DNA from: a virus
Length of the DNA stretch: 35,607 nucleotides
IMG/VR virus record: IMGVR_UViG_3300032156_000043
Location: 1-35,607 of that record
Direction: 5' to 3' (one strand)
The notes under the pieces are model-generated. The model saw only the letters and a list, made by a program, of their open reading frames with translations. It had not been told where the DNA came from and made no database searches. This document shows positions 471-33,873 of the stretch, piece by piece (within the stretch, counting starts at the first letter, position 1; the number at the start of each line of letters is the position of its first letter). Position numbers and translations under genes: made by a program.

Positions 471-476
471 TTGGTA

Positions 477-1382
477 ATGTCTCAATTAACACAGAGTCAA
501 ATCGCCCGACAGGCAGAACAAGACATTGTAGACTTGTTAGTTAAACTCTCAACTAATATAGCACTGATATTCGCTCATGCAGCGACAGAAAGAAACCAGA
601 TAATAGCACAAGCGAGCGCACGTAGGGAAGCATCAAGACTGATTCGCGCCACAATTGCCGGTGAAAATGGGCATTCTGCTTACTCGACTTTGCTCATGTA
701 TTGGGTTTTGGCTATGGTGTACAGTGTGGGCATAGAGCACGCACAGCATCTAGCAAGATTGCCGGAAAAAACGCCCTCAGACACCCTTCGTATAGACCCC
801 CTCTATATGACGCCCTATGCTTGGGTCGATCCTAACGGGATGCGTTTACAGGATAGAATAGACCATGTAGCACAGCGCACAGCACAGCAATTCGACCGAG
901 CTATACTGCTCTTGCTCTTGCGTACAGAGCCTGCTGATCTGCCTGCCAAGATACACAAATTGTTCACTGTCGCAGCCAACAATACAGGCTCTGCGTTAGG
1001 GTATGAATCATGGCGTTTGATGCGTCATGAGATGAATAGAATGTATGGTGCTGCTATCATCACAGCAGGCTCATATAGCCCTATTGTAGCAGGTATAGAC
1101 TGGGCACTATCACCCAGGCATCCTAAGCAAGATCATTGTGATATAGTGGCTACAATAGCAATGGATGGCACACGTATCAAAGAGCCATATACAGCAGGCT
1201 CTGTACCTAATTATCCTGATCATGTGTATTGTCTATGCTCACTACAGAATGCATGGCAAGAGTACCCTGCTGCACAGGGCAATGTAGTCTATGCTGCTAT
1301 ACTGAGTAATCCTATTATGTTTACTGTGCTCTTGACAGGGCAGAGCTATATACCTCAAAGCATCATTCGCAACGCCCAATAG
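477..1382 (+). CDS. Phage minor head protein (head morphogenesis, SPP1 gp7 / Mu gpF type)
   Basis: A 301-residue protein that I read as the minor head protein associated with portal and capsid in tailed phages. The evidence is the C-terminal part: a Trp-x-Leu-Ser-Pro-x-His-Pro-x-x-Asp-x-Cys motif (about residues 209-221), followed by a PxxPDHxxCxC segment (about 246-254). This is the usual Cys/His arrangement of the gp7/Mu-F family. An upstream helix near residues 179-192 resembles the family's Arg/Glu-rich helix. ATG 477 is chosen because GGAG at 465-468 is 8 bases upstream; the in-frame TTG at 471 is too close to it. The gene stands alone between the repeat array and a terminator. Its codon use (many ATA and GCA codons) looks different from the capsid operon. 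Portal and terminase, its usual partners, are not in the window. Confidence 0.72.
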   Translation: MSQLTQSQIARQAEQDIVDLLVKLSTNIALIFAHAATERNQIIAQASARREASRLIRATIAGENGHSAYSTLLMYWVLAMVYSVGIEHAQHLARLPEKTPSDTLRIDPLYMTPYAWVDPNGMRLQDRIDHVAQRTAQQFDRAILLLLLRTEPADLPAKIHKLFTVAANNTGSALGYESWRLMRHEMNRMYGAAIITAGSYSPIVAGIDWALSPRHPKQDHCDIVATIAMDGTRIKEPYTAGSVPNYPDHVYCLCSLQNAWQEYPAAQGNVVYAAILSNPIMFTVLLTGQSYIPQSIIRNAQ

Positions 1383-8189: not shown

Positions 8190-8454
8190 CGGTTACAGTT
8201 TGGAGTTACTGCGATGGGGAGACGGAGAAGTGCATCTTGTATATTGGGATTGTCTGGAAGGAAAAGACCTTAATTTTGTGATCAAGCGGGCCATGAACAC
8301 CGTGACGCAAAAATACGAGGTTTTAGTTTACAAATCAAAATACGCAAACCCAGAAGACGAAACACCAACGTTGATTCTGATCGATGATTTGCCCTGGGAA
8401 CTGCTCATGCTGTGTAATCAACTGGAACGAAGGGATTCGACCATTGAAGACTAA
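8182..8454 (+). CDS. Hypothetical phage protein
   Basis: A 90-residue protein starting at GTG 8182, chosen because GGAGG lies 6 bases upstream; an upstream in-frame ATG lies inside the preceding gene with no ribosome site. The first part is beta-rich with several aromatic residues (LLRWGDGEVHLVYWDCLEG). A conserved-looking LILIDDLPWELLMLC segment lies near the C-terminus. I do not recognise a family. It overlaps both neighbours by a few bases, typical for this operon. Confidence 0.6.
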   Translation: MSNGYSLELLRWGDGEVHLVYWDCLEGKDLNFVIKRAMNTVTQKYEVLVYKSKYANPEDETPTLILIDDLPWELLMLCNQLERRDSTIED

Positions 8455-8659
8455 ATTGACCGCTGTCCAAGAATTTACAATCAATAATCTGCGCGCACTG
8501 CCAGGTCACACGTTTTATGTGCACGAGTATGTACCAGAATCAACCATCGAAGTACTCGATTCGCTGTGCGAGTTGGGGTTATTGAACTATCTACCAGAAA
8601 ACGGGACGATCAAAGGTTGTTACGTTTTGAATCCTGATCGACAGGAGTTATCAGAATGA
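8444..8659 (+). CDS. Small hypothetical protein, TTG start likely
   Basis: A 71-residue protein, if started at TTG 8444, where an AAGGGA site lies 8 bases upstream. The alternative ATG 8384 lies deep inside the preceding gene without a good site. Helix-strand pattern (QEFTINNLRALPG ... TIEVLDSLCELGLLNYL) followed by a short beta-hairpin resembles a small winged-helix-like fold. The resemblance is generic and DNA binding is not shown. It ends in an ATGA overlap with the Ntn hydrolase gene, with GGAG about 7 bases before that start. Confidence 0.5.
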   Translation: MKTKLTAVQEFTINNLRALPGHTFYVHEYVPESTIEVLDSLCELGLLNYLPENGTIKGCYVLNPDRQELSE

Positions 8660-9207
8660 CCTGTATTATTGGTATAGAAGACGACAAGGCGGCATATTTA
8701 ATAACCGATTCGTGCGTCACCGATGGGTGGTCGGTAAGTAACCAACTGGCGTATTCAAAAATCGCAACTGTTGGGGATTTGTTGATTGGAATCACTGGCG
8801 ATACGCGCATGGCTGATGTGGTAGCATGGCACTTTGAACCACGCATCCAGGATGCGCACGAGGTTGACGCGCATTATGTATCAGTCGGAGTTGCAGACGC
8901 AATACGCCAACTTCTAAAAAATGTGGGTTATAGCGAGATAAACAACAACAAAGAAACAACATATGGCACCATGCTGATAGCTTATCACGGCATCCTTTAC
9001 CACGTCAGTTCTGAATATGGGATTATGCGGACGCAGGATCGTTTGTACGCTATAGGGTCTGGTTATTTAGTTGCATTGGGAGCAATGAAAGCATTGCAAC
9101 CCTATCTAGCCATACCTGAACGACTGCAGCGTGCCAGCGAGGTTGTTTCATCCACCATTTCAAGCGTGAGCGCCGCGTTTCTGGCTTATAAACAGGAAAA
9201 AACCTAA
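8656..9207 (+). CDS. HslV/proteasome beta-like Ntn hydrolase
   Basis: A 183-residue protein with the signature of self-processing Ntn hydrolases of the proteasome/HslV family (threonine peptidases). It begins Met-Thr, so removal of Met would expose the catalytic Thr1. Asp at mature position 17 (LITDSCVTDG) matches the family Asp17. The Lys of YSKIATVGDLLIGITGD at mature position 34 matches Lys33 within one residue. AIGSGYLVALGAMKAL near residues 131-146 carries the conserved Gly-Ser-Gly. No long propeptide is present, as in HslV. No HslU-like ATPase is visible in the window, so a host ATPase or ATP-independent action would be needed. The family supports hydrolase activity; the substrate is unknown. 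It is coupled at both ends (ATGA, TAATG). Confidence 0.75.
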   Translation: MTCIIGIEDDKAAYLITDSCVTDGWSVSNQLAYSKIATVGDLLIGITGDTRMADVVAWHFEPRIQDAHEVDAHYVSVGVADAIRQLLKNVGYSEINNNKETTYGTMLIAYHGILYHVSSEYGIMRTQDRLYAIGSGYLVALGAMKALQPYLAIPERLQRASEVVSSTISSVSAAFLAYKQEKT

Positions 9208-9515
9208 TGTCTGATGATAATCTGCGTCAAAAACGGTTTGACGCGCAACTTCCGGCGACGGTCGTGCCACGCTCTTTGAAGGCGCGATTGTTAAATTACA
9301 TAGAGCGTCAGAAGCAGGCTGGATTCGACGCCAATCAATCTGAAGTGGTGCGCATGGCATTATCTCAGTATCTGGAGCACCCGACGCTCGTGCGATTGAC
9401 TCCAGAACTGAAGACTCTTTTGGAAGGCTATGCGCGCGAGCATGATATGACGTTAGATCAGGCGGTGCAACAAGGGCTACAGTGGTTTTTGAATACGCAA
9501 AGGGGGAAACGATGA
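9207..9515 (+). CDS. Ribbon-helix-helix-like protein with two helix pairs
   Basis: A 102-residue protein. Residues about 14-50 have the pattern of a ribbon-helix-helix (CopG/Arc type) DNA-binding domain: a strand with VVPRSLKARLLNYI, a turn, then NQSEVVRMALSQYL. Residues about 54-96 repeat the pattern (VRLTPELKTLLEGYA ... LDQAVQQGLQWFL), giving a tandem arrangement in one chain. RHH proteins usually dimerise to bind operators or act as antitoxins, so a phage regulator is plausible. The ATG shares one base with the stop of the Ntn hydrolase gene (TAATG), coupling the two. The call rests on pattern only. Confidence 0.6.
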   Translation: MSDDNLRQKRFDAQLPATVVPRSLKARLLNYIERQKQAGFDANQSEVVRMALSQYLEHPTLVRLTPELKTLLEGYAREHDMTLDQAVQQGLQWFLNTQRGKR

Positions 9516-10865: not shown

Positions 10866-10907
10866 AATAGTATCTTTATTTTGTCTCAACAATCACGCGA
10901 GGCGCGA

Positions 10908-12185
10908 ATGCGAGAGCAGATATTTTTAGAGACACTCCATCAATTTTCGGGCAAATATCCACCGGTGCCGATGGCTCCTGGTGTTGATCTAGCCCAGTTC
11001 ACCGAGGGTGACGAAAATTCCGAGGGAGACAAAAAGCCGTTCTTTGTAACTTTGCCGATTGGTAAAGTGGGCGCGCGTTCGCGCAACAAGCGCAATTATC
11101 CACGCGAGGCGATTCAGGAGATTGTGCGTCAGATTAACACGAATCAACCCAGTGGTAATCTGGGCCACCCTAAAAGTGGGGCCGAAAGTGGAAATGGGTT
11201 TAATCTACCTGCGATTTACTGGGTGGGAGCCATCCTGGAAGAATCGACAGGCGTGGCATGGGGTAAGTTTTATGTGCCGATGTACCGCCAGGATTTGCGT
11301 GAATACTATCGCCTGGCGATGCGCCGGGGCGCAAACGTGGCAACATCGTTACTCGGCACTACAGAGATCGATGCCAACGGCAATGTAATCAACCCGCAAA
11401 TCACCTGGATTGACGTGGTTAATCCTCACGAGGCGGGAGTACTCGAAGCGGTTGGCAAACCCCAAATCACGATGGAAACAACAATTGATCCTCAAGAGGA
11501 GGAGAAAATGGAATACGGAGATTTGATCGCTGAACGAGACACGTTCAAGCGACAATTGGCCGAAGCGCAGACCGAAGTGGCTACGCTAAAAACTAACGCC
11601 CAGGCTACAGCGCAGACGCTGACTAGCTTGAGCGAAATCGCGGGCAGCGCGAATGTAGGGGAGACCCTCAAGGCGCTTCAGACGCTCCAAGAACAAATCA
11701 ACACCGAGTTGAAGACGGACAAGCCTTTAGAGGCCATTCGGACGCTGAAGACCGAACGTGATGGACTGGCCGAGGCGGTCGGTTCGATTGACGCGGTGAA
11801 AGTTCTGCGCGGCACCTTTGCAGAGATCGAGACTCTGGTCGGTGACAAACCGGTGGAATCTATTAAAGCGCTGCAGGGTGATCTTGCCGCTGCGCGAACG
11901 GAACTTGGCGAGATGCTCAAAGAAACCGTGAAGTTGTCGGTTGACACCGAAGTGAAAGTGCCCTCGGCGCGGCCAATGGTGCTCAAACTTCTGGAAGCCA
12001 AACAGCCACAGAATCGTGAGCAGGTTAAGACCATGTTGAGCGAAATCCTGGACAGCGAAGAGGTTAAGGCTTTGCTGGTGGATCAGGTTAAGAAAACAAT
12101 GGGCGGCGCACAACGGGGCGCTGTGGTTACCCCGCCCTCTGAACAAAAAGGTAAATACTTCACGATCCCGAAGAGGGAGGACTAA
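10908..12185 (+). CDS. Capsid maturation protease with C-terminal scaffolding domain
   Basis: A 425-residue fusion, read as prohead protease plus scaffold. The first ~195 residues contain an Arg/Asn-rich strand (RNKRNYPREAI), GNLGHPKSG with candidate catalytic His at about residue 87, and GANVATSLLGT with candidate Ser at about residue 147. This layout (GxLxHP, then a Ser strand) is that of herpes-assemblin/T4 gp21-like prohead proteases. Residues from about 201 onward are Glu/Lys/Leu/Ala-rich coiled coil, typical of scaffolds cleaved during maturation. ATG 10908 has GAGG 5 bases upstream; TTG 10881 is in frame but has no ribosome site. The next gene begins right after its stop. An internal start (11508) could make the scaffold alone. 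Confidence 0.78.
   Translation: MREQIFLETLHQFSGKYPPVPMAPGVDLAQFTEGDENSEGDKKPFFVTLPIGKVGARSRNKRNYPREAIQEIVRQINTNQPSGNLGHPKSGAESGNGFNLPAIYWVGAILEESTGVAWGKFYVPMYRQDLREYYRLAMRRGANVATSLLGTTEIDANGNVINPQITWIDVVNPHEAGVLEAVGKPQITMETTIDPQEEEKMEYGDLIAERDTFKRQLAEAQTEVATLKTNAQATAQTLTSLSEIAGSANVGETLKALQTLQEQINTELKTDKPLEAIRTLKTERDGLAEAVGSIDAVKVLRGTFAEIETLVGDKPVESIKALQGDLAAARTELGEMLKETVKLSVDTEVKVPSARPMVLKLLEAKQPQNREQVKTMLSEILDSEEVKALLVDQVKKTMGGAQRGAVVTPPSEQKGKYFTIPKRED
11508..12185 (+). CDS. Nested scaffold protein from internal start in the protease gene
   Basis: Within the protease frame, AGGAGG at 11497-11502 is followed after 5 bases by an in-frame ATG (11508-11510). This is one of the best ribosome sites in the window. 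It lies exactly at the junction between the protease domain and the coiled coil. Translation from it would give a 225-residue scaffold without the protease. Nested protease/scaffold genes are known in phages such as lambda (C/Nu3). Expression of the short form is an inference from the site and the domain boundary. Confidence 0.6.
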   Translation: MEYGDLIAERDTFKRQLAEAQTEVATLKTNAQATAQTLTSLSEIAGSANVGETLKALQTLQEQINTELKTDKPLEAIRTLKTERDGLAEAVGSIDAVKVLRGTFAEIETLVGDKPVESIKALQGDLAAARTELGEMLKETVKLSVDTEVKVPSARPMVLKLLEAKQPQNREQVKTMLSEILDSEEVKALLVDQVKKTMGGAQRGAVVTPPSEQKGKYFTIPKRED

Positions 12186-12578: not shown

Positions 12579-13601
12579 ATGAAACTCATTACTTCTGCTA
12601 CGTTAAAGAAAAATCGGCCTCGCACGTCTATGGCGGCTGATTTCAAACTAAGTGAGCATTTTCGCATTATCGAACAGCGCGGCGCTGAACAAACGCTGGT
12701 CGAATTCATTGGTTCGCAGGACTTCCCTGCGGAGTTTCGCACGATGCAGCAGTACGAAGTTGACGCGGGGCGCGACTCCGAACCGGTGCTCTATAACGAC
12801 ATTTACAACGTCGTCTCGAACTCTGAACTGCCTGAGTGGATTCCTATTTATCGCACCGGCCCGGCTGGCGTGGTGCTTGAGGAAGTCTTTGAAGGCGGCG
12901 AAGTTAAGTTTATGACCATCGGGGAGAGCCAGGACTCGGTGCACGTTCGTCAGTGGGGCGTCGGGCTTGAGTACTCGAAGAAAATGCTGATGTACAATTA
13001 CATGTGGCAAATGGGCATTATGGAACGTCAGCTTGGCGTAGCCCACAATGCGCTGTTGAACCACTTGCATTTGTCGCCCATTCTCACGGCCACTTATGCC
13101 GCTGCGAACCAGACGGCTGCCGTGACTGGCGCGGGGAGTCTCGAGAATAACTACCTGCGCACGCTTGAAGCTGCTGTAAGCGATGGCGAAGATGACGAGG
13201 ATAATCCTCGCCGTGGCCCGTATGCTCTGATCATTTCCACCAGCAACCGGTTTGCGATGGAACGGGCCTTGACGACCGTGCCACAGGAAGGTTTCGAGAA
13301 GCAAGGATCGGTGATCGGGGATATTGATACGGTTGTGGTGTATAATGGGTGGAAGGGCAAACGCGGCAAGTTGTCGACCACTTATGCTGGCGTGACCGCC
13401 AACAAAGCCTATCTGGTGAGTTTGCAATTCAAGGATATGGACTTCCAGAGCTTTGAGAAACAACCGTTGCAGTCAACTATTGGAAATCCAGATGTGAGCC
13501 GTTTCATTCTGGAGCAACAGGTGTGGGACACGCATTTGGCTGTGTTTGCCAACCCGACGAGGGCGGTACAGGAAATAACACTGCCGACCAGCGCATCCTA
13601 A
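12579..13601 (+). CDS. Major capsid protein
   Basis: A 340-residue protein that I take as the shell-forming major capsid protein. The support is its position after protease/scaffold and decoration genes and its size. Its composition also fits: mixed alpha/beta, a segment near residues 110-150 with an aromatic, Met-rich helix, and a typical C-terminal block containing DMDFQSF and the hydrophobic WDTHLAVFANPTRAV near residues 315-330. An HK97-type fold is expected for this gene context but is not proven from the sequence. A strong AAAGGAGG site precedes the start. The long reading frame on the opposite strand here is a shadow of this gene. Confidence 0.8.
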   Translation: MKLITSATLKKNRPRTSMAADFKLSEHFRIIEQRGAEQTLVEFIGSQDFPAEFRTMQQYEVDAGRDSEPVLYNDIYNVVSNSELPEWIPIYRTGPAGVVLEEVFEGGEVKFMTIGESQDSVHVRQWGVGLEYSKKMLMYNYMWQMGIMERQLGVAHNALLNHLHLSPILTATYAAANQTAAVTGAGSLENNYLRTLEAAVSDGEDDEDNPRRGPYALIISTSNRFAMERALTTVPQEGFEKQGSVIGDIDTVVVYNGWKGKRGKLSTTYAGVTANKAYLVSLQFKDMDFQSFEKQPLQSTIGNPDVSRFILEQQVWDTHLAVFANPTRAVQEITLPTSAS

Positions 13602-13623: not shown

Positions 13624-14817
13624 ATGTTAGTTACAACTGATCGTTGTCGCGAGGCGACAACCTGTCGTGCTGGTGGAGGAGCCTTACGTGAGGTATTGAA
13701 CCTGGGGAGCCTCCACCTCAGTGCTTTTTTGCAAGTAAATGAAGCTGAACCTCCAAGTTATCCTCTTGTTTTGACCGTCGGTGAAAAAAGTGGCCTTATT
13801 CAGCTAAAACACACCGTCGATCACGATCTACTTTACAGAAACTACTGGTATCGCAGTGGCACCAACGAAACGATGGTTAAACACCTGGTCGAGTTGATGC
13901 ATACCGCTGCTTCGCGTGCTAACTTGCAGCCTGGCGACATTAGCCTGGATATTGGCTGCAATGACGGCACACTGTTAAATGCAGCGCCTGAAGGGGTATA
14001 TACCATCGGGTTTGATCCATCCAATATTCAACCTGAAGGCATAGACGAATATATCCCTGACTTTTTCTCCCCTGGATTTTTAGGCCAGCGACGGGCAAAA
14101 GTCGTTACCTCAATCGCAATGTTTTACGATCTGGATAACCCGGTAGAATTTGCTCAAAACGTAGCGGATGTTTTGACCGAAGATGGTTTGTGGGTCTGCG
14201 AGATGCATTACTCGCGGGCCATGATCAATACTTTCGGGTTTGACGCAATTTGCCATGAGCATTTAGCGTATTACGATCTGTGCTCACTCGAATTTGTACT
14301 CGATCAGGTTGGGCTAAAAGTGATCGACGTTGAGCGTAACGTGATCAATGGCGGATCGTTTAGGGCTTATATAGCCAAACATGGTACTGCTAGCATCGCA
14401 GTGGATCAAATGCGTCAGATCGAACGCCAGAATCCGATAGATTTTGTGATGTTCGAACGCGGCATTCGACGGCAAAGAGACGTGTGTCGCGCCATGCTGC
14501 ATAACCTCAAAAATGAAAACAAATTAGTCCTGGGGTATGGAGCCTCAACCAAAGGCTCCACGATAGCTCAATATTACGGCATTACCCAGGATTTAATGCC
14601 AGTCATTGCGGATCGTAATCCGCTCAAGTGGGGACTGTATTGTTCAGGCACTGGCATTCCTGTTATCAGTGAAGAAGCGGCTCGTAAAATGGAACCGGAC
14701 GTATTTTTCGCTTTTCCTTATCATTTTATCGAGGGATTCTTGAAACGAGAAACTGAACATTTGGCGCGTGGCGGTAAATTTATGATCACCGTGCCCCAAC
14801 CGAGGCTACTCCCATGA
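13624..14817 (+). CDS. Sugar C-methyltransferase-like SAM enzyme
   Basis: A 397-residue protein with the full layout of sugar C-methyltransferases of the TcaB9/NovU/TylC3 group, which methylate carbon 3 of nucleotide-activated deoxysugars. An N-terminal zinc-domain-like region (residues 1-80) is followed by a SAM-binding loop LDIGCNDGTLL (108-118). Then comes CHEHLAYYDLCSL (210-222), with the Tyr/Glu/His cluster used in catalysis in this family. The C-terminal Rossmann-like domain has GYGASTKGST (304-313). The zinc domain looks partly lost: Cys8 and Cys14 remain, but the second usual Cys pair is replaced (LTVGEKSGLIQL). It lies between the major capsid and connector genes and overlaps the next gene (ATGA), so it is a late gene. 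Confidence 0.75.
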   Translation: MLVTTDRCREATTCRAGGGALREVLNLGSLHLSAFLQVNEAEPPSYPLVLTVGEKSGLIQLKHTVDHDLLYRNYWYRSGTNETMVKHLVELMHTAASRANLQPGDISLDIGCNDGTLLNAAPEGVYTIGFDPSNIQPEGIDEYIPDFFSPGFLGQRRAKVVTSIAMFYDLDNPVEFAQNVADVLTEDGLWVCEMHYSRAMINTFGFDAICHEHLAYYDLCSLEFVLDQVGLKVIDVERNVINGGSFRAYIAKHGTASIAVDQMRQIERQNPIDFVMFERGIRRQRDVCRAMLHNLKNENKLVLGYGASTKGSTIAQYYGITQDLMPVIADRNPLKWGLYCSGTGIPVISEEAARKMEPDVFFAFPYHFIEGFLKRETEHLARGGKFMITVPQPRLLP

Positions 14818-16091
14818 CTTATTCAACATGCCTTAACTTTTCAGATTACCCGGTGTTAGCTGACGAAATTGCCAACTTTGATACAGTACGTGAATTGTTA
14901 GAAGTAGGGCTGGATACCGAACATCGCGCCTGGGAGTCGGCCTTAGCACTACGTGCCGTTCAAGAACGAGGTTGTGAGACCGTGCTCGTTTTAGGCGGTC
15001 ACCAGACAGTGCTCCCTGCAATTTTTAGAGATCGCGGTCTGACCGTCACTTATCTTTCATCGGTTGTCGAAATGAGCGCGCTACATTTTACGATGAAATA
15101 TGATGCCATTGTAGCTTTGTCGGTTTTGGAACACGTGGACGATCCGAATACGCTATACAATCATCTGTTAGATCAAGCCAACAAGGTAGTGGTGATCACA
15201 ACCGATTGTTCAGCCAACGGACAAGTTTATACGGTCGATCAAAAGCGGACATATACCCCACCGATGCTGTGGCAATTGTTTATGATAGCTGAATATAAAG
15301 GCTGGCGCACATTTCACCGGCCTTATTGGGGCAATATTGAACCGCTGGTTGAAGGGGCTTATAGTTTGGCCTCTCTGTGCCTCTACAAACCGCAAGAAAC
15401 ACTCAGACCGTATGATTTAACCTTGTGCTCTATCATGCGCAACAGTATGCCCTATTTGCCGCGTTATCAGCGTCAGGTACATCAAGTACTGGAGCAATTT
15501 AACCACGTTCACCTAATTGTGGTCGAAGGAGACAGTACTGATCAAACCAGAGCGACTCTCGAAAAATGGCGAGACGAACTCACCATGACCGGTCACACGC
15601 TCGATGTAATTCGTTACGACACCGGTGCGCCTATGATCGGATCGGTCGATCACTCCGGTCGCTGGATTAATCTGGAACGGTGCTGGAATGAAGCGTTGTG
15701 GCATGTAGAACCGTTATCTGGTTGGGTCGTTTGTGTAGAGTCTGATCTGATTTGGGATTGGGCTGCATTACGTACCTGTATGGATACTATAGAGAATTTA
15801 ACGGCAGATGTGGTTTGCCCGCTGTTGATGAGCTTCAGTAAAGAGGGTTGGTTTCACGACATCAACGGATTCGTAGACAAGGTGACCGGTGAAAACTTCA
15901 CCAATGAGTATCCGTGGGCACCCGCTTGGGATGGTCTCAAACGGTATATTCCGTTGGTGACCGGTGGTGGCATGCTGGTCTGTCACGCTGAAGCATTAAG
16001 CGGGGCCGAATGGCATAACAAGTGTCGTTTACATTTTAGGACTGGATTGCGCATGGTCGCTGACATGCATACAAGGATATACCACCCGTGA
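14814..16091 (+). CDS. Methyltransferase-glycosyltransferase fusion
   Basis: A 425-residue two-domain protein. Residues about 55-130 look like a class I SAM methyltransferase (VLVLGGHQTVL, then YDAIVALSVLEHVDD), but the usual acidic-Gly-Cys-Gly loop is altered, so SAM binding may be lost. From about residue 200 the chain resembles a GT-A glycosyltransferase: LCSIMRNSMPYL, then LIVVEGDSTDQT (234-245), and VVCVESDLIWDW (305-316) in the place of the DxD metal site. The opening resembles eukaryotic-type GT62/GT69 and bacterial GT2 enzymes; family is not fixed. ATG 14814 overlaps the previous stop, and the end overlaps the next gene (GTGA). A role with its neighbours in building or transferring a methylated sugar is inferred. 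Confidence 0.65.
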   Translation: MTYSTCLNFSDYPVLADEIANFDTVRELLEVGLDTEHRAWESALALRAVQERGCETVLVLGGHQTVLPAIFRDRGLTVTYLSSVVEMSALHFTMKYDAIVALSVLEHVDDPNTLYNHLLDQANKVVVITTDCSANGQVYTVDQKRTYTPPMLWQLFMIAEYKGWRTFHRPYWGNIEPLVEGAYSLASLCLYKPQETLRPYDLTLCSIMRNSMPYLPRYQRQVHQVLEQFNHVHLIVVEGDSTDQTRATLEKWRDELTMTGHTLDVIRYDTGAPMIGSVDHSGRWINLERCWNEALWHVEPLSGWVVCVESDLIWDWAALRTCMDTIENLTADVVCPLLMSFSKEGWFHDINGFVDKVTGENFTNEYPWAPAWDGLKRYIPLVTGGGMLVCHAEALSGAEWHNKCRLHFRTGLRMVADMHTRIYHP

Positions 16092-17149
16092 CTCAAATAA
16101 TAAACCTTTACTCGGCGTTGTGGAATCCGCTGGATTCTTATGGACGGTTGGCACATGAAACACGGAAAGCACTCACACGTTTGGGTGTGTATGTGAATTG
16201 TTTTGGTGAAAAAGCGCCGCAAGAACAACCTATTCGCCCTGCATGGGGCGGGTTGTTTATTTCTCCGGCTGGTTATTACGATCAATTGAATAATCCATTA
16301 TCGTGCGATGGCCCGCGTGTAGCAGTGACCATGTTTGAAAGCACGCATTTGCCTCCCAAGTGGATAACACCGCTCAATCAATGCGATCATATCATCGTTC
16401 CGGCGCACTGGTTAGTTGATGTGATGGCCGACAATGGCGTAATGGCTCCGGTGAGTGTTGTTCCGTTGGGAGTGAGTGAACCTTATTTGCATTGTGCGCC
16501 TCGGAATGCCAGGAACAAAGTGTGCACTTTTTATATCGTCGGTGATTCAGGGGTACGAGGGCGAAAAGGCTGGAGTTTAGCTGGTTGGGCTTTTGTAAAA
16601 GCGTTCGGTGACAGCCCTAACCATCGTCTGATTATCAAAGCGCGAGCAGGCGGCATGAATTTTACCTTCACCAACCCTAACATTACGTTGTTGCAAGGAG
16701 AATATTCCGATAGGGCTATGCACGCCCTATATTGCAGCACCGATGCGATGGTTTTTCCGAGTCGGGGCGAGGGTTTTGGATTGCCACCTCGTGAATATGC
16801 GGGATCGGGTGGGGCTGTTGCTGTTACTAACTGGAGTGGATTGACGGACGATTTGGATGCGTGGGGTTATCCATTACCTTATCGAATGACTCGTGCCTGG
16901 CAAAGCAACACCGATTACAGCGCATTGGGTGGCCGATGGGCAGAAGCAGGCGTGGATGAGATCGCAGAATGGATGTTATGGTACAATGATCATAGAGCAG
17001 AGGCTAACGAGCGAGCCGTCGAAGCAGCCAAAGCGATAAAGCGTCTGTATTCGTGGGATAATTTTGGTGCTCAAGTGCTGCGCGCTTGGGAACAAACTTG
17101 CGAGGATTTTTATGGTAACAGCATTACAGCGAAATCGACTGCGCGTTGA
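16088..17149 (+). CDS. GT-B glycosyltransferase (GT4-like)
   Basis: A 353-residue enzyme that would transfer a sugar from a nucleotide donor. The C-terminal Rossmann domain has VFPSRGEGFGLPPREYAG (about residues 218-235), the Glu-x7-Glu donor-binding motif of GT4. A GDSGVRGRKGW segment near residue 153 matches the glycine/basic loop at the start of the second domain. The N-terminal domain contains VTMFESTHLPP and IIVPAHWLVDVM, as in bacterial GT4 proteins. It starts with GTG 16088 (GTGA overlap). Its last 38 bases overlap the connector gene, so the sugar cassette is transcribed and translated with the head genes. Acceptor is unknown: virion protein, DNA or host glycan are options. Confidence 0.8.
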   Translation: MTQIINLYSALWNPLDSYGRLAHETRKALTRLGVYVNCFGEKAPQEQPIRPAWGGLFISPAGYYDQLNNPLSCDGPRVAVTMFESTHLPPKWITPLNQCDHIIVPAHWLVDVMADNGVMAPVSVVPLGVSEPYLHCAPRNARNKVCTFYIVGDSGVRGRKGWSLAGWAFVKAFGDSPNHRLIIKARAGGMNFTFTNPNITLLQGEYSDRAMHALYCSTDAMVFPSRGEGFGLPPREYAGSGGAVAVTNWSGLTDDLDAWGYPLPYRMTRAWQSNTDYSALGGRWAEAGVDEIAEWMLWYNDHRAEANERAVEAAKAIKRLYSWDNFGAQVLRAWEQTCEDFYGNSITAKSTAR

Positions 17150-31830: not shown

Positions 31831-33873
31831 ATGGTGAGCGTACTGAATGACCTTAGAGATCATCTGGCAGGCATTAACGGGGCACCGGTGGCCGTTGACG
31901 TTAACGACCACCAGTTTACTTTACCAGCCTCTGATCTGCTGCGCGCGTTAGGGCCAGTCGATTACGAGGGCACGTGGTGTTATCCCATCGGGACTCCAAG
32001 TAATTTACAATATCCTCCACCTAGTGAACGGTATCCGAATATCATCTGGGTACAAACTAACTACGTAGGGGCATTCTATAAACTGAACGGTACACCAAGT
32101 CGTCACACTGGATCAGACCTTGACGAGAGTGGTTATCTGGACGTAGGGGAATACCTTCATGCCATCACCAGAGGCCACGTTATTTACGCGAGTTTAATCC
32201 CTGCTCCGTCAACCTGGGGCAATGTACTGGTCATTCGTTACGAACTGCCTGAAGGCGGGTATTTTTATGCTCGTTTTGCGCATCTGAACAGTATGGCCGT
32301 CGAAGTCGGACAGGACGTTATTCCAGGGCAAATCATCGGTGAAGTGGGCAATATAGGAATGCCTACGGTGCCGCATCTTCACTGGGATATCACCAAACCT
32401 AACGACGATCTACTGGCGCAAAATCCGTTAGACTGGCCTTCAAGCCGGTTTGACGATGCTGGCGCGTTGGCGTTTATTAAACTGCATTATGTTGATCCAG
32501 GCACTTTTATCCGTGCATACTTGGTGCCTGCCCCACCGAAGCCAGAACCCGCTGGCGAATGGATGCGAGTCGATACCGCAGCGCTGAATTACCGCAACGG
32601 CAAAGGGACTGCAGCAACGATCATGGGGCATTTGCACCAGGATACATTAGCACGGATCAATGGCAGTGAAGAAATTTCTGGCAACTTATGGGGACAGATC
32701 ACGGAGTGCCTGGATGCGCCTGAAGCGATAGGGTACTGGCTTGCTCGTAATCTGATGCGCTTAGATGCTCCGGTTGAAACGGTCAAACGATATGTTCAGA
32801 TCGCCGGTTTGAATATCCGATTAACCACGCATATTGTTTCAACCAATATCATTGGGTCTTTGACATTAAATGCCCTGATTGATGTATCTGCAGCCACAAT
32901 TGTCGCAGAGGATTATATCTGGCGGCAGTACAAGGACGGATGGGTAGCCGACGCAAAACAGGATGGCACCTGGCGGGGATTGTTAGACCGCCCTTTTGAC
33001 CCTCCTGTGTCCTTGAGAAATCGTATAGGAGTTCACGTGCATTCGACTAACGCACCGAATGCAGACGTTCTAGCGATGGCACAGGAAGGATTGTTGGCTG
33101 GAGTTACCGGTCTTAACAACGCTGGATTGATTAATCTTCTGGTTGATATAGTGCCGTATGTGGTAGGTCGACTATGTTTAACTGATCACGATCCTATGCC
33201 GCCCATCCGAGGCTCGTTTAGTGATGAACAACTCGGATGGGATTGGTATTACCAACGTGGTGGAAACTTCCCATTGTATGATTACATAGAACAATTAGAC
33301 CGAAAAATAATTATTCAGGGAGTTTGCGAGCAAAATCACCCTGACGATGGGTTGTTTTATATTGGTTTTATGAAGGCTGCCGAAAAAGACGGACGAAAAG
33401 TGGTAATTTTTAACGATTCGGTTGGTAACCCCTGGGACTCCGATGCGCGAAATGGATTCGGTATCTGGCGTCGTAGGATCGCGACCGGTTGTTTACGACA
33501 TTGTAAAGCGAACGGACATTTCGTTGGGTATCATGGATATGGGAAACCAGACGAATATCCCGGTTCTGCGATAGGCGATGACGAAGCCTGGAAACTTTAT
33601 GGCGGTCGAGTCCTTGAAGCATATGCAATTACTCTGGAAGATAGTCGTCCACCTATCTTATATACAGAAGCCGGTACTAACAGAGCAAACTATATGGGGC
33701 CAGATTTTACAGTTACGGACATGCACGGCTATCAAACCCGATTGGCCGATAACCCGTATGTAAAAGCGGTCATGTATTGGGAACTTGGTGGGCGAGGGGA
33801 TCGTTCCTTTGATCGTTCGTGCATGGATGCTGCCATACCGCAAATCACGGCCTATCTACGAACGAGAAGATGA
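31831..33873 (+). CDS. Modular endolysin: M23 peptidase, two SH3 domains, glycosidase-like C-terminus
   Basis: A 680-residue protein. Residues about 45-205 are an M23 (LytM) metallopeptidase: His92-x3-Asp96 (RHTGSDLD), His151 and HxH at 182-184 (PHLHW), the full zinc/catalytic set that cleaves peptidoglycan cross-bridges. Two SH3-like wall-binding domains follow (about 243-310 and 318-385). Residues 395-680 look like a TIM-barrel glycosidase-like domain (GVHVHSTNAPN, several Trp and Glu/Asp residues, ILYTEAGTN as a possible acid/base strand), but the family is uncertain. No signal peptide is seen, so export would rely on the holin. Its end overlaps the convergent HNH gene by 18 bases. Confidence 0.8.
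   Translation: MVSVLNDLRDHLAGINGAPVAVDVNDHQFTLPASDLLRALGPVDYEGTWCYPIGTPSNLQYPPPSERYPNIIWVQTNYVGAFYKLNGTPSRHTGSDLDESGYLDVGEYLHAITRGHVIYASLIPAPSTWGNVLVIRYELPEGGYFYARFAHLNSMAVEVGQDVIPGQIIGEVGNIGMPTVPHLHWDITKPNDDLLAQNPLDWPSSRFDDAGALAFIKLHYVDPGTFIRAYLVPAPPKPEPAGEWMRVDTAALNYRNGKGTAATIMGHLHQDTLARINGSEEISGNLWGQITECLDAPEAIGYWLARNLMRLDAPVETVKRYVQIAGLNIRLTTHIVSTNIIGSLTLNALIDVSAATIVAEDYIWRQYKDGWVADAKQDGTWRGLLDRPFDPPVSLRNRIGVHVHSTNAPNADVLAMAQEGLLAGVTGLNNAGLINLLVDIVPYVVGRLCLTDHDPMPPIRGSFSDEQLGWDWYYQRGGNFPLYDYIEQLDRKIIIQGVCEQNHPDDGLFYIGFMKAAEKDGRKVVIFNDSVGNPWDSDARNGFGIWRRRIATGCLRHCKANGHFVGYHGYGKPDEYPGSAIGDDEAWKLYGGRVLEAYAITLEDSRPPILYTEAGTNRANYMGPDFTVTDMHGYQTRLADNPYVKAVMYWELGGRGDRSFDRSCMDAAIPQITAYLRTRR

Follow-up and report, generated by a model that had tools for sequence, protein, structure and literature searches.

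The closest described systems are the proteasome homologs surveyed by Fuchs, Alva and Lupas in 2021, who reported 22 new homologs and discussed PPH and AAH as present in many phages (PMC8665760). Both have neither a propeptide nor a known unfoldase, no genomic context suggested a function, and no measured activity or assembly was reported for AAH or PPH proteins (PMC8665760). AAH occurs in alpha-proteobacteria and Actinobacteria, and also in Firmicutes and phages, with no actinobacterial phage found to carry it in that survey; PPH is about 140 residues long and lacks helix H2 (PMC8665760). Connectase, which is also proteasome-like, is not a protease but a ligase, and it is monomeric (PMC8665760). 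The betaproteobacterial proteasome homolog (BPH) forms a double ring and binds epoxomicin, and no unfoldase is known for it (PMC5777263).

Here, we analyzed one gene of this kind in the window, i.e., the whole 35,607-nt stretch of the virus record IMGVR_UViG_3300032156_000043. By its sequence, the encoded protein belongs to a phage proteasome-like family (PHROG 1040); phage proteasome homologs have been described since 2021 (PMC8665760), and the window protein adds a distant member to this known kind. The reading that we favor, and hold to be fairly probable, is that of a phage-encoded group-I proteasome homolog, probably AAH, which would act as a self-assembling threonine peptidase without a dedicated unfoldase. 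The open reading frame marked by an earlier, sequence-only reading of this DNA (the first-pass annotation) at 8656-9207 is present as described, with an ATG start and 183 codons (N-terminal sequence MTCIIGIEDDKAAYLITDSC..., given also as MTCIIGIEDDKAAYLITDSCVTDG...). An AGGAG lies shortly 5' of this ATG. The start codon overlaps the preceding frame (ATGA) and the stop codon overlaps the next start by one base (TAATG); this tight spacing resembles that of an operon with translational coupling. The coordinates of all features are collected in Table 1, in which mature numbering refers to the protein after removal of the initiator Met, so that the ORF residue number equals the mature number plus one.

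Table 1. Features of the window around the predicted peptidase gene, with coordinates in the whole stretch
Feature	Position	Strand	Remarks
Minor head / head morphogenesis protein	471..1382	+	PHROG 1657, E = 2.8e-16
Small upstream ORF	8384..8659	+	Overlaps the peptidase start codon by four bases (ATGA); no family match
Proteasome-like (Ntn hydrolase) threonine peptidase gene, predicted	8656..9207	+	183 aa; PHROG 1040; probable AAH subfamily
Predicted nucleophile Thr1 codon (ORF residue 2)	8659..8661	+	Exposed by initiator Met removal
Asp17 codon (ORF residue 18)	8707..8709	+	95/95 sequences
Lys34 codon (ORF residue 35), equivalent of proteasome Lys33	8758..8760	+	95/95 sequences
Gly-Ser-Gly motif (ORF residues 134-136; mature 133-135)	9055..9063	+	Counterpart of conserved Gly-Ser/Cys/Thr-Gly
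Weak Arc/ParD-like (RHH) gene	9207..9515	+	TAATG overlap with the peptidase stop; not conserved beside relatives
Candidate prohead protease (weak)	10881..12185	+	PHROG 3219, E = 4e-9; PHROG 207 head maturation protease, E = 2e-4
Major capsid protein	12579..13601	+	PF25209 Phage_capsid_4, E = 2.6e-9

We compared the protein to curated and phage-derived profiles. The PHROG 1040 "peptidase HslV family" profile matched residues 1-146 with E = 4.1e-17, whereas the Pfam model PF00227 Proteasome gave 17.7 bits (E = 0.003), below its gathering score of 22.4, and two NCBIfam HslV models gave 17.9 bits against a cut-off of 137 and 17.1 bits against a cut-off of 157.75. PF00227 matches only 18 of the 80 family members at E <= 0.01 (best 1e-8), so that the curated model covers the family too narrowly. 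The first-pass annotation had named an HslV/proteasome-like enzyme and proposed a profile search against these families; the proteasome-like Ntn assignment stands, but HslV itself does not. The protein shares with HslV (ClpQ) the fold, the catalytic residues and the Gly-Ser-Gly motif; however, HslV proper was rejected because the scores fall more than 110 bits below the curated cut-offs, and the window contains no HslU gene. Like PPH, the window protein is a phage-borne homolog without a propeptide or a known unfoldase, but PPH membership was rejected as well: the protein has 183 residues compared to about 140, and its model contains both helix pairs, whereas PPH lacks helix H2. PPH-sized phage entries (131-146 aa, from Caulobacter phages) matched the structure much less well (TM by query length, 0.51-0.58). 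Given this misfit and the occurrence of genomic relatives in alpha-proteobacteria, Actinobacteria and Firmicutes, AAH is the most likely subfamily, an assignment made from the published description and the taxon distribution. The AAH description that applies here is that of a compact group-I homolog with an N-terminal Thr, no propeptide, and conserved Asp and Lys. The AAH-type distribution (alpha-proteobacteria, Actinobacteria, Firmicutes and phages) is a property of the family as a whole and not of the window copy itself, which, compared to AAH, is a lone divergent lineage with at most 32% identity to any relative.

The AlphaFold2 model built from an 80-sequence alignment (pLDDT 94.1, pTM 0.89) has the Ntn-hydrolase alpha-beta sandwich of a proteasome beta subunit, with helix pairs at 51-59 and 71-89 and at 137-147 and 153-167; a run on the single sequence, with no alignment, gave a meaningless model (pLDDT 35) that was discarded. 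Foldseek placed BPH first among PDB entries (5ovs; E = 6e-11, probability 1.00, TM 0.77), followed by HslV and then by 20S proteasome beta subunits, again with probability 1.00, and it also retrieved phage entries with TM up to 0.90. The family profile run against PDB sequences gave the same order, with BPH at E = 6e-13, HslV at 1.5e-12 and archaeal proteasome beta at 3e-7. These matches, like that to PHROG 1040, lie well outside what chance would produce. The proteasome/HslV fold that had been read from the sequence is therefore supported by the predicted structure, by Foldseek and by the profile, and the high-confidence model, far from departing from the Ntn sandwich, matches the proteasome fold. 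BPH (5ovs/5ovt/5ovu; PMC5777263) is the best solved match by both profile and fold, and it resembles the window protein in its Thr1/Lys active site as well as in having no known unfoldase. The two differ in that identity is only 18-22% and that BPH is chromosomal, tetradecameric (a double heptameric ring) and equipped with a long acidic pore loop, whereas the phage protein was modelled as a monomer.

All the active-site elements that the first-pass annotation had listed were found in the window protein, i.e., Thr directly after Met, Asp at mature position 17, Lys at position 34, and Gly-Ser-Gly at mature 133-135. In an alignment of 95 non-redundant viral sequences, ORF position 2 is Thr in 92, Ser in one, and truncated in two; Asp18 and Lys35 are each present in all 95, and ORF position 45 is Gly or Ala in all 95. 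The motif is similarly constrained: Gly134 and Ser/Cys/Thr135 occur in 95 of 95 sequences and Gly136 in 94. Across the window protein and 16 proteins of phage records, Met1-Thr2, Asp18, Lys35, Gly45, Gly134 and Gly136 are invariant. Lys34 sits one residue later than Lys33 of the proteasome and HslV, and Gly44 and Gly47 (mature) fall in the oxyanion-loop region. The active site thus looks complete, as had been suggested, with N-terminal Thr, Asp and Lys in place and near-invariant across relatives. One relative (L078, 4510-5070) starts Met-Ser-Thr rather than Met-Thr, and its nucleophile has possibly switched to Ser, as reported for some BPH.

If the enzyme operates as we propose, host methionine aminopeptidase would remove the initiator Met and expose Thr1, no propeptide being involved; Lys34 and Asp17 would activate Thr1, and the Gly44-Gly47 loop would form the oxyanion hole. 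Peptide bonds would then be cut in the manner of a proteasome beta subunit. In the manner of BPH and HslV, the protein probably assembles from identical subunits into stacked rings that enclose the active sites. Family, fold, active-site conservation, purifying selection among relatives and the lack of a detectable AAA+ partner in the window are computational results, whereas catalysis, ring assembly, ATP-independence and substrate are inferred. It should be noted that connectase is a ligase despite its proteasome-like fold, so that fold and catalytic triad together do not prove proteolysis.

As the first-pass annotation had stated, the window shows no ATPase partner: neither an AAA_2 (PF07724) nor an AAA (PF00004) domain was found in the window record, which may be a fragment. 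Among the 40 family-bearing phage records, 33 had no match to a Clp/HslU-type ATPase (AAA_2) and seven had one; five of these seven were above the cut-off, all five in jumbo-sized phages. Because viral records may be fragments, a missing ATPase is not proof of absence. With no unfoldase of its own, the peptidase would most likely need no ATP and attack protein segments that are unfolded, short or exposed, or it would borrow a host chaperone, and such unfoldase-free working would resemble what has been proposed for BPH. In Escherichia phage 121Q, a ClpP-like protease annotation lies two genes ahead of the proteasome-like gene (L011, 3065-4597), and a Clp-type AAA_2 ATPase is encoded elsewhere in the genome.

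Relatives were found in 40 phage records by tblastn, at about 22-32% identity, with carriers ranging from jumbo Escherichia/Salmonella phages to phages of Moorella, Geobacillus, Vibrio, Microbacterium and Tunturiibacter. Two profile scans of viral contigs returned 441 and 452 relatives, and a scan of genome contigs returned 203, including those in Azospirillum, Rhizobium, Mesorhizobium, Actinoplanes, Dactylosporangium, Paenibacillus and others. The contig scans used sub-alignments, the profile of all 17 sequences being too diverse, as was A2 against the genome contigs; single-sequence scans of viral contigs with the Ntn protein and with the capsid found no relatives. The tree places the window protein with the larger MTC-type clade (97/92), a position that is unsure because of long branches: its end branch measures 3.28 changes per column, and the nearest relative has 32% identity. 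The window protein is thus a lone, divergent, long-branch lineage, and as a deep lineage with a fully kept active site it helps to show which residues are important. In pairs of relatives, dN/dS is about 0.035-0.135, indicative of strong purifying selection; these pairs, and hence the figure, concern the relatives and not the window copy. In contrast to the AAH distribution surveyed in 2021, the relatives found here include actinomycete phages, namely Microbacterium phage Pumpernickel and Actinomycetia phage DSL-LC01 (L004, L009). A WhiB gene lies near the family gene in several other contigs.

The gene immediately downstream was considered as a possible partner, since the first-pass annotation had coupled it to the peptidase. 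The stop/start overlap fits such a coupling, but the partner is shared with no relative examined. The assignment of the product to the RHH proteins is weak (PHROG 582 Arc-like repressor, E = 6e-4; ParD-like, E = 0.004), and a comparison to PDB sequences gave no match. By eye, residues of about 20-56 and 58-93 seem to form two similar segments, each with the look of a ribbon-helix-helix unit, so that the protein is possibly a tandem RHH. Neither it nor any other window neighbor had a cluster mate in the neighborhoods of about 175 related loci. A single-sequence scan of 2.9 million viral contigs revealed no close relative of the RHH-like protein. When 122 immediate neighbors in related loci were compared to PHROG, the 25 families matched most often included none of the RHH type. 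The co-occurrence of peptidase and RHH gene that had been suggested as a check was therefore found neither in these loci nor among the frequent neighbor families, and with no counterpart beside relatives the link to the RHH gene goes no further than operon packing in one phage.

The surroundings of the relatives provide a lead. Recurrent neighbor clusters in related contigs include portal, terminase and a protease-capsid fusion. A first head-module count (29 compared to 13.3 expected) was partly circular, as its markers had themselves been found near the gene; it was therefore replaced by a search for large terminases over whole contigs with two PHROG families. This search detected a terminase in 33 phage contigs; 17 of them have the Ntn gene no more than 1.5 kb from it, compared to 2.1 expected for random places, and 23 have it no more than 5 kb away, compared to 6.8 expected. 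None of 200,000 random placements reached 17 contigs at the shorter distance; the contigs are partly related, so that these counts are not of independent events and overstate independence. In a group of phages of about 39 kb (L029, 7445-7981, and related), the order is TerL, portal (PHROG 104), Ntn hydrolase, small genes, a protein of about 1,700 aa and capsid. The minor head gene identifies the window as a tailed-phage head region, and the window copy also has head-gene neighbors, less tightly placed: the peptidase gene forms part of a cassette of small, unannotated ORFs, about 20 in number, with the minor head gene on one side and the candidate prohead protease, capsid and tail genes on the other. 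This terminase/portal context is the only new lead on function, for part of the family, and is absent from the 2021 paper.

The context raises the possibility that the enzyme is a protease of the head-assembly or packaging stage, made with the late genes, which trims or clears a structural component during capsid maturation, for example, scaffold fragments, the portal or a minor head protein, or terminase. The proximity to terminase, the gene order in the 39-kb group, and the place of the window gene between the minor head gene and the protease/capsid genes all favor this explanation. Against it, an ordinary head maturation protease is present in many related loci, even adjoining the Ntn gene (PHROG 9644/80; PHROG 617 protease-capsid fusion), and in the window a weak candidate of this type lies 1.7 kb downstream of the Ntn gene; the candidate has a long coiled-coil, scaffold-like C-terminal half and no match in PDB. 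In large phages, the gene is instead often surrounded by genes of nucleotide and NAD metabolism. Accessory genes, HNH nucleases among them, are, moreover, often located beside terminase genes, and HNH families are frequent neighbors of the family gene; the partial relatedness of the contigs weighs on the same side. To our knowledge, a role in capsid maturation has so far been found only for other, non-Ntn phage prohead proteases. That the Ntn enzyme generally takes the place of the prohead protease was considered and rejected, since ordinary head maturation proteases are encoded beside it. A head-stage protease is thus an unlikely explanation, and the same low probability applies to the idea that the proteasome-like ring peptidase of ordinary-sized tailed phages belongs to the head-packaging module and serves in capsid maturation or in packaging quality control. 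The placement beside terminase and portal is nonetheless the first testable functional lead for part of the family, to be weighed against the habit of accessory genes of occupying such flanks.

We regard head assembly, action with host HslU and counter-defence all as less likely than the threonine-peptidase reading. Slightly less probable than the head-stage role is that the protein is a phage HslV that replaces or joins the host HslV and, driven by host HslU, degrades host or phage regulators. In the PDB profile comparison HslV comes close behind BPH, most family-bearing phage records have no phage-encoded unfoldase, and Escherichia and Salmonella, whose phages carry the gene, possess HslU. 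The gap to the curated HslV models speaks against this, as do the nearest sequence and fold, which are those of BPH, without a known unfoldase (PMC5777263). An enzyme of counter-defence or host takeover, which would use limited cleavage, or ligation like connectase, to inactivate a defence protein or a regulator of the bacterium, seems improbable: very diverse phages carry the gene at variable places, as is typical of accessory genes, and the window gene lies in the small-ORF cassette between head genes, but no defence-related family is among the frequent neighbor families. Furthermore, six phage head/terminase markers had no match within 6 kb in 70 of the 80 genome loci, so that some copies are chromosomal and the family is not accounted for by a purely anti-host role. 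That the protein is a degenerate or non-enzymatic remnant, as the long branch might suggest, is highly improbable given the intact active-site positions, the intact frame with coupled start and stop, and the high-confidence fold.

Several other genes of the window are worth recording. An Endonuclease VII/HNH-like ORF (PHROG 1035, E = 2e-6) lies at 1545-1832, adjoined by further small head-region ORFs (1545-2366). A protein of 680 aa encoded at 31831-33873, downstream of tail-fibre-like genes, has a metallo-endopeptidase/endolysin-like segment (residues about 84-202). Between the capsid and tail genes, at 13624-17149, there are a C-methyltransferase gene (PF08484, E = 8e-35) and two glycosyltransferase-like genes, a group that may represent a sugar-modification cassette.
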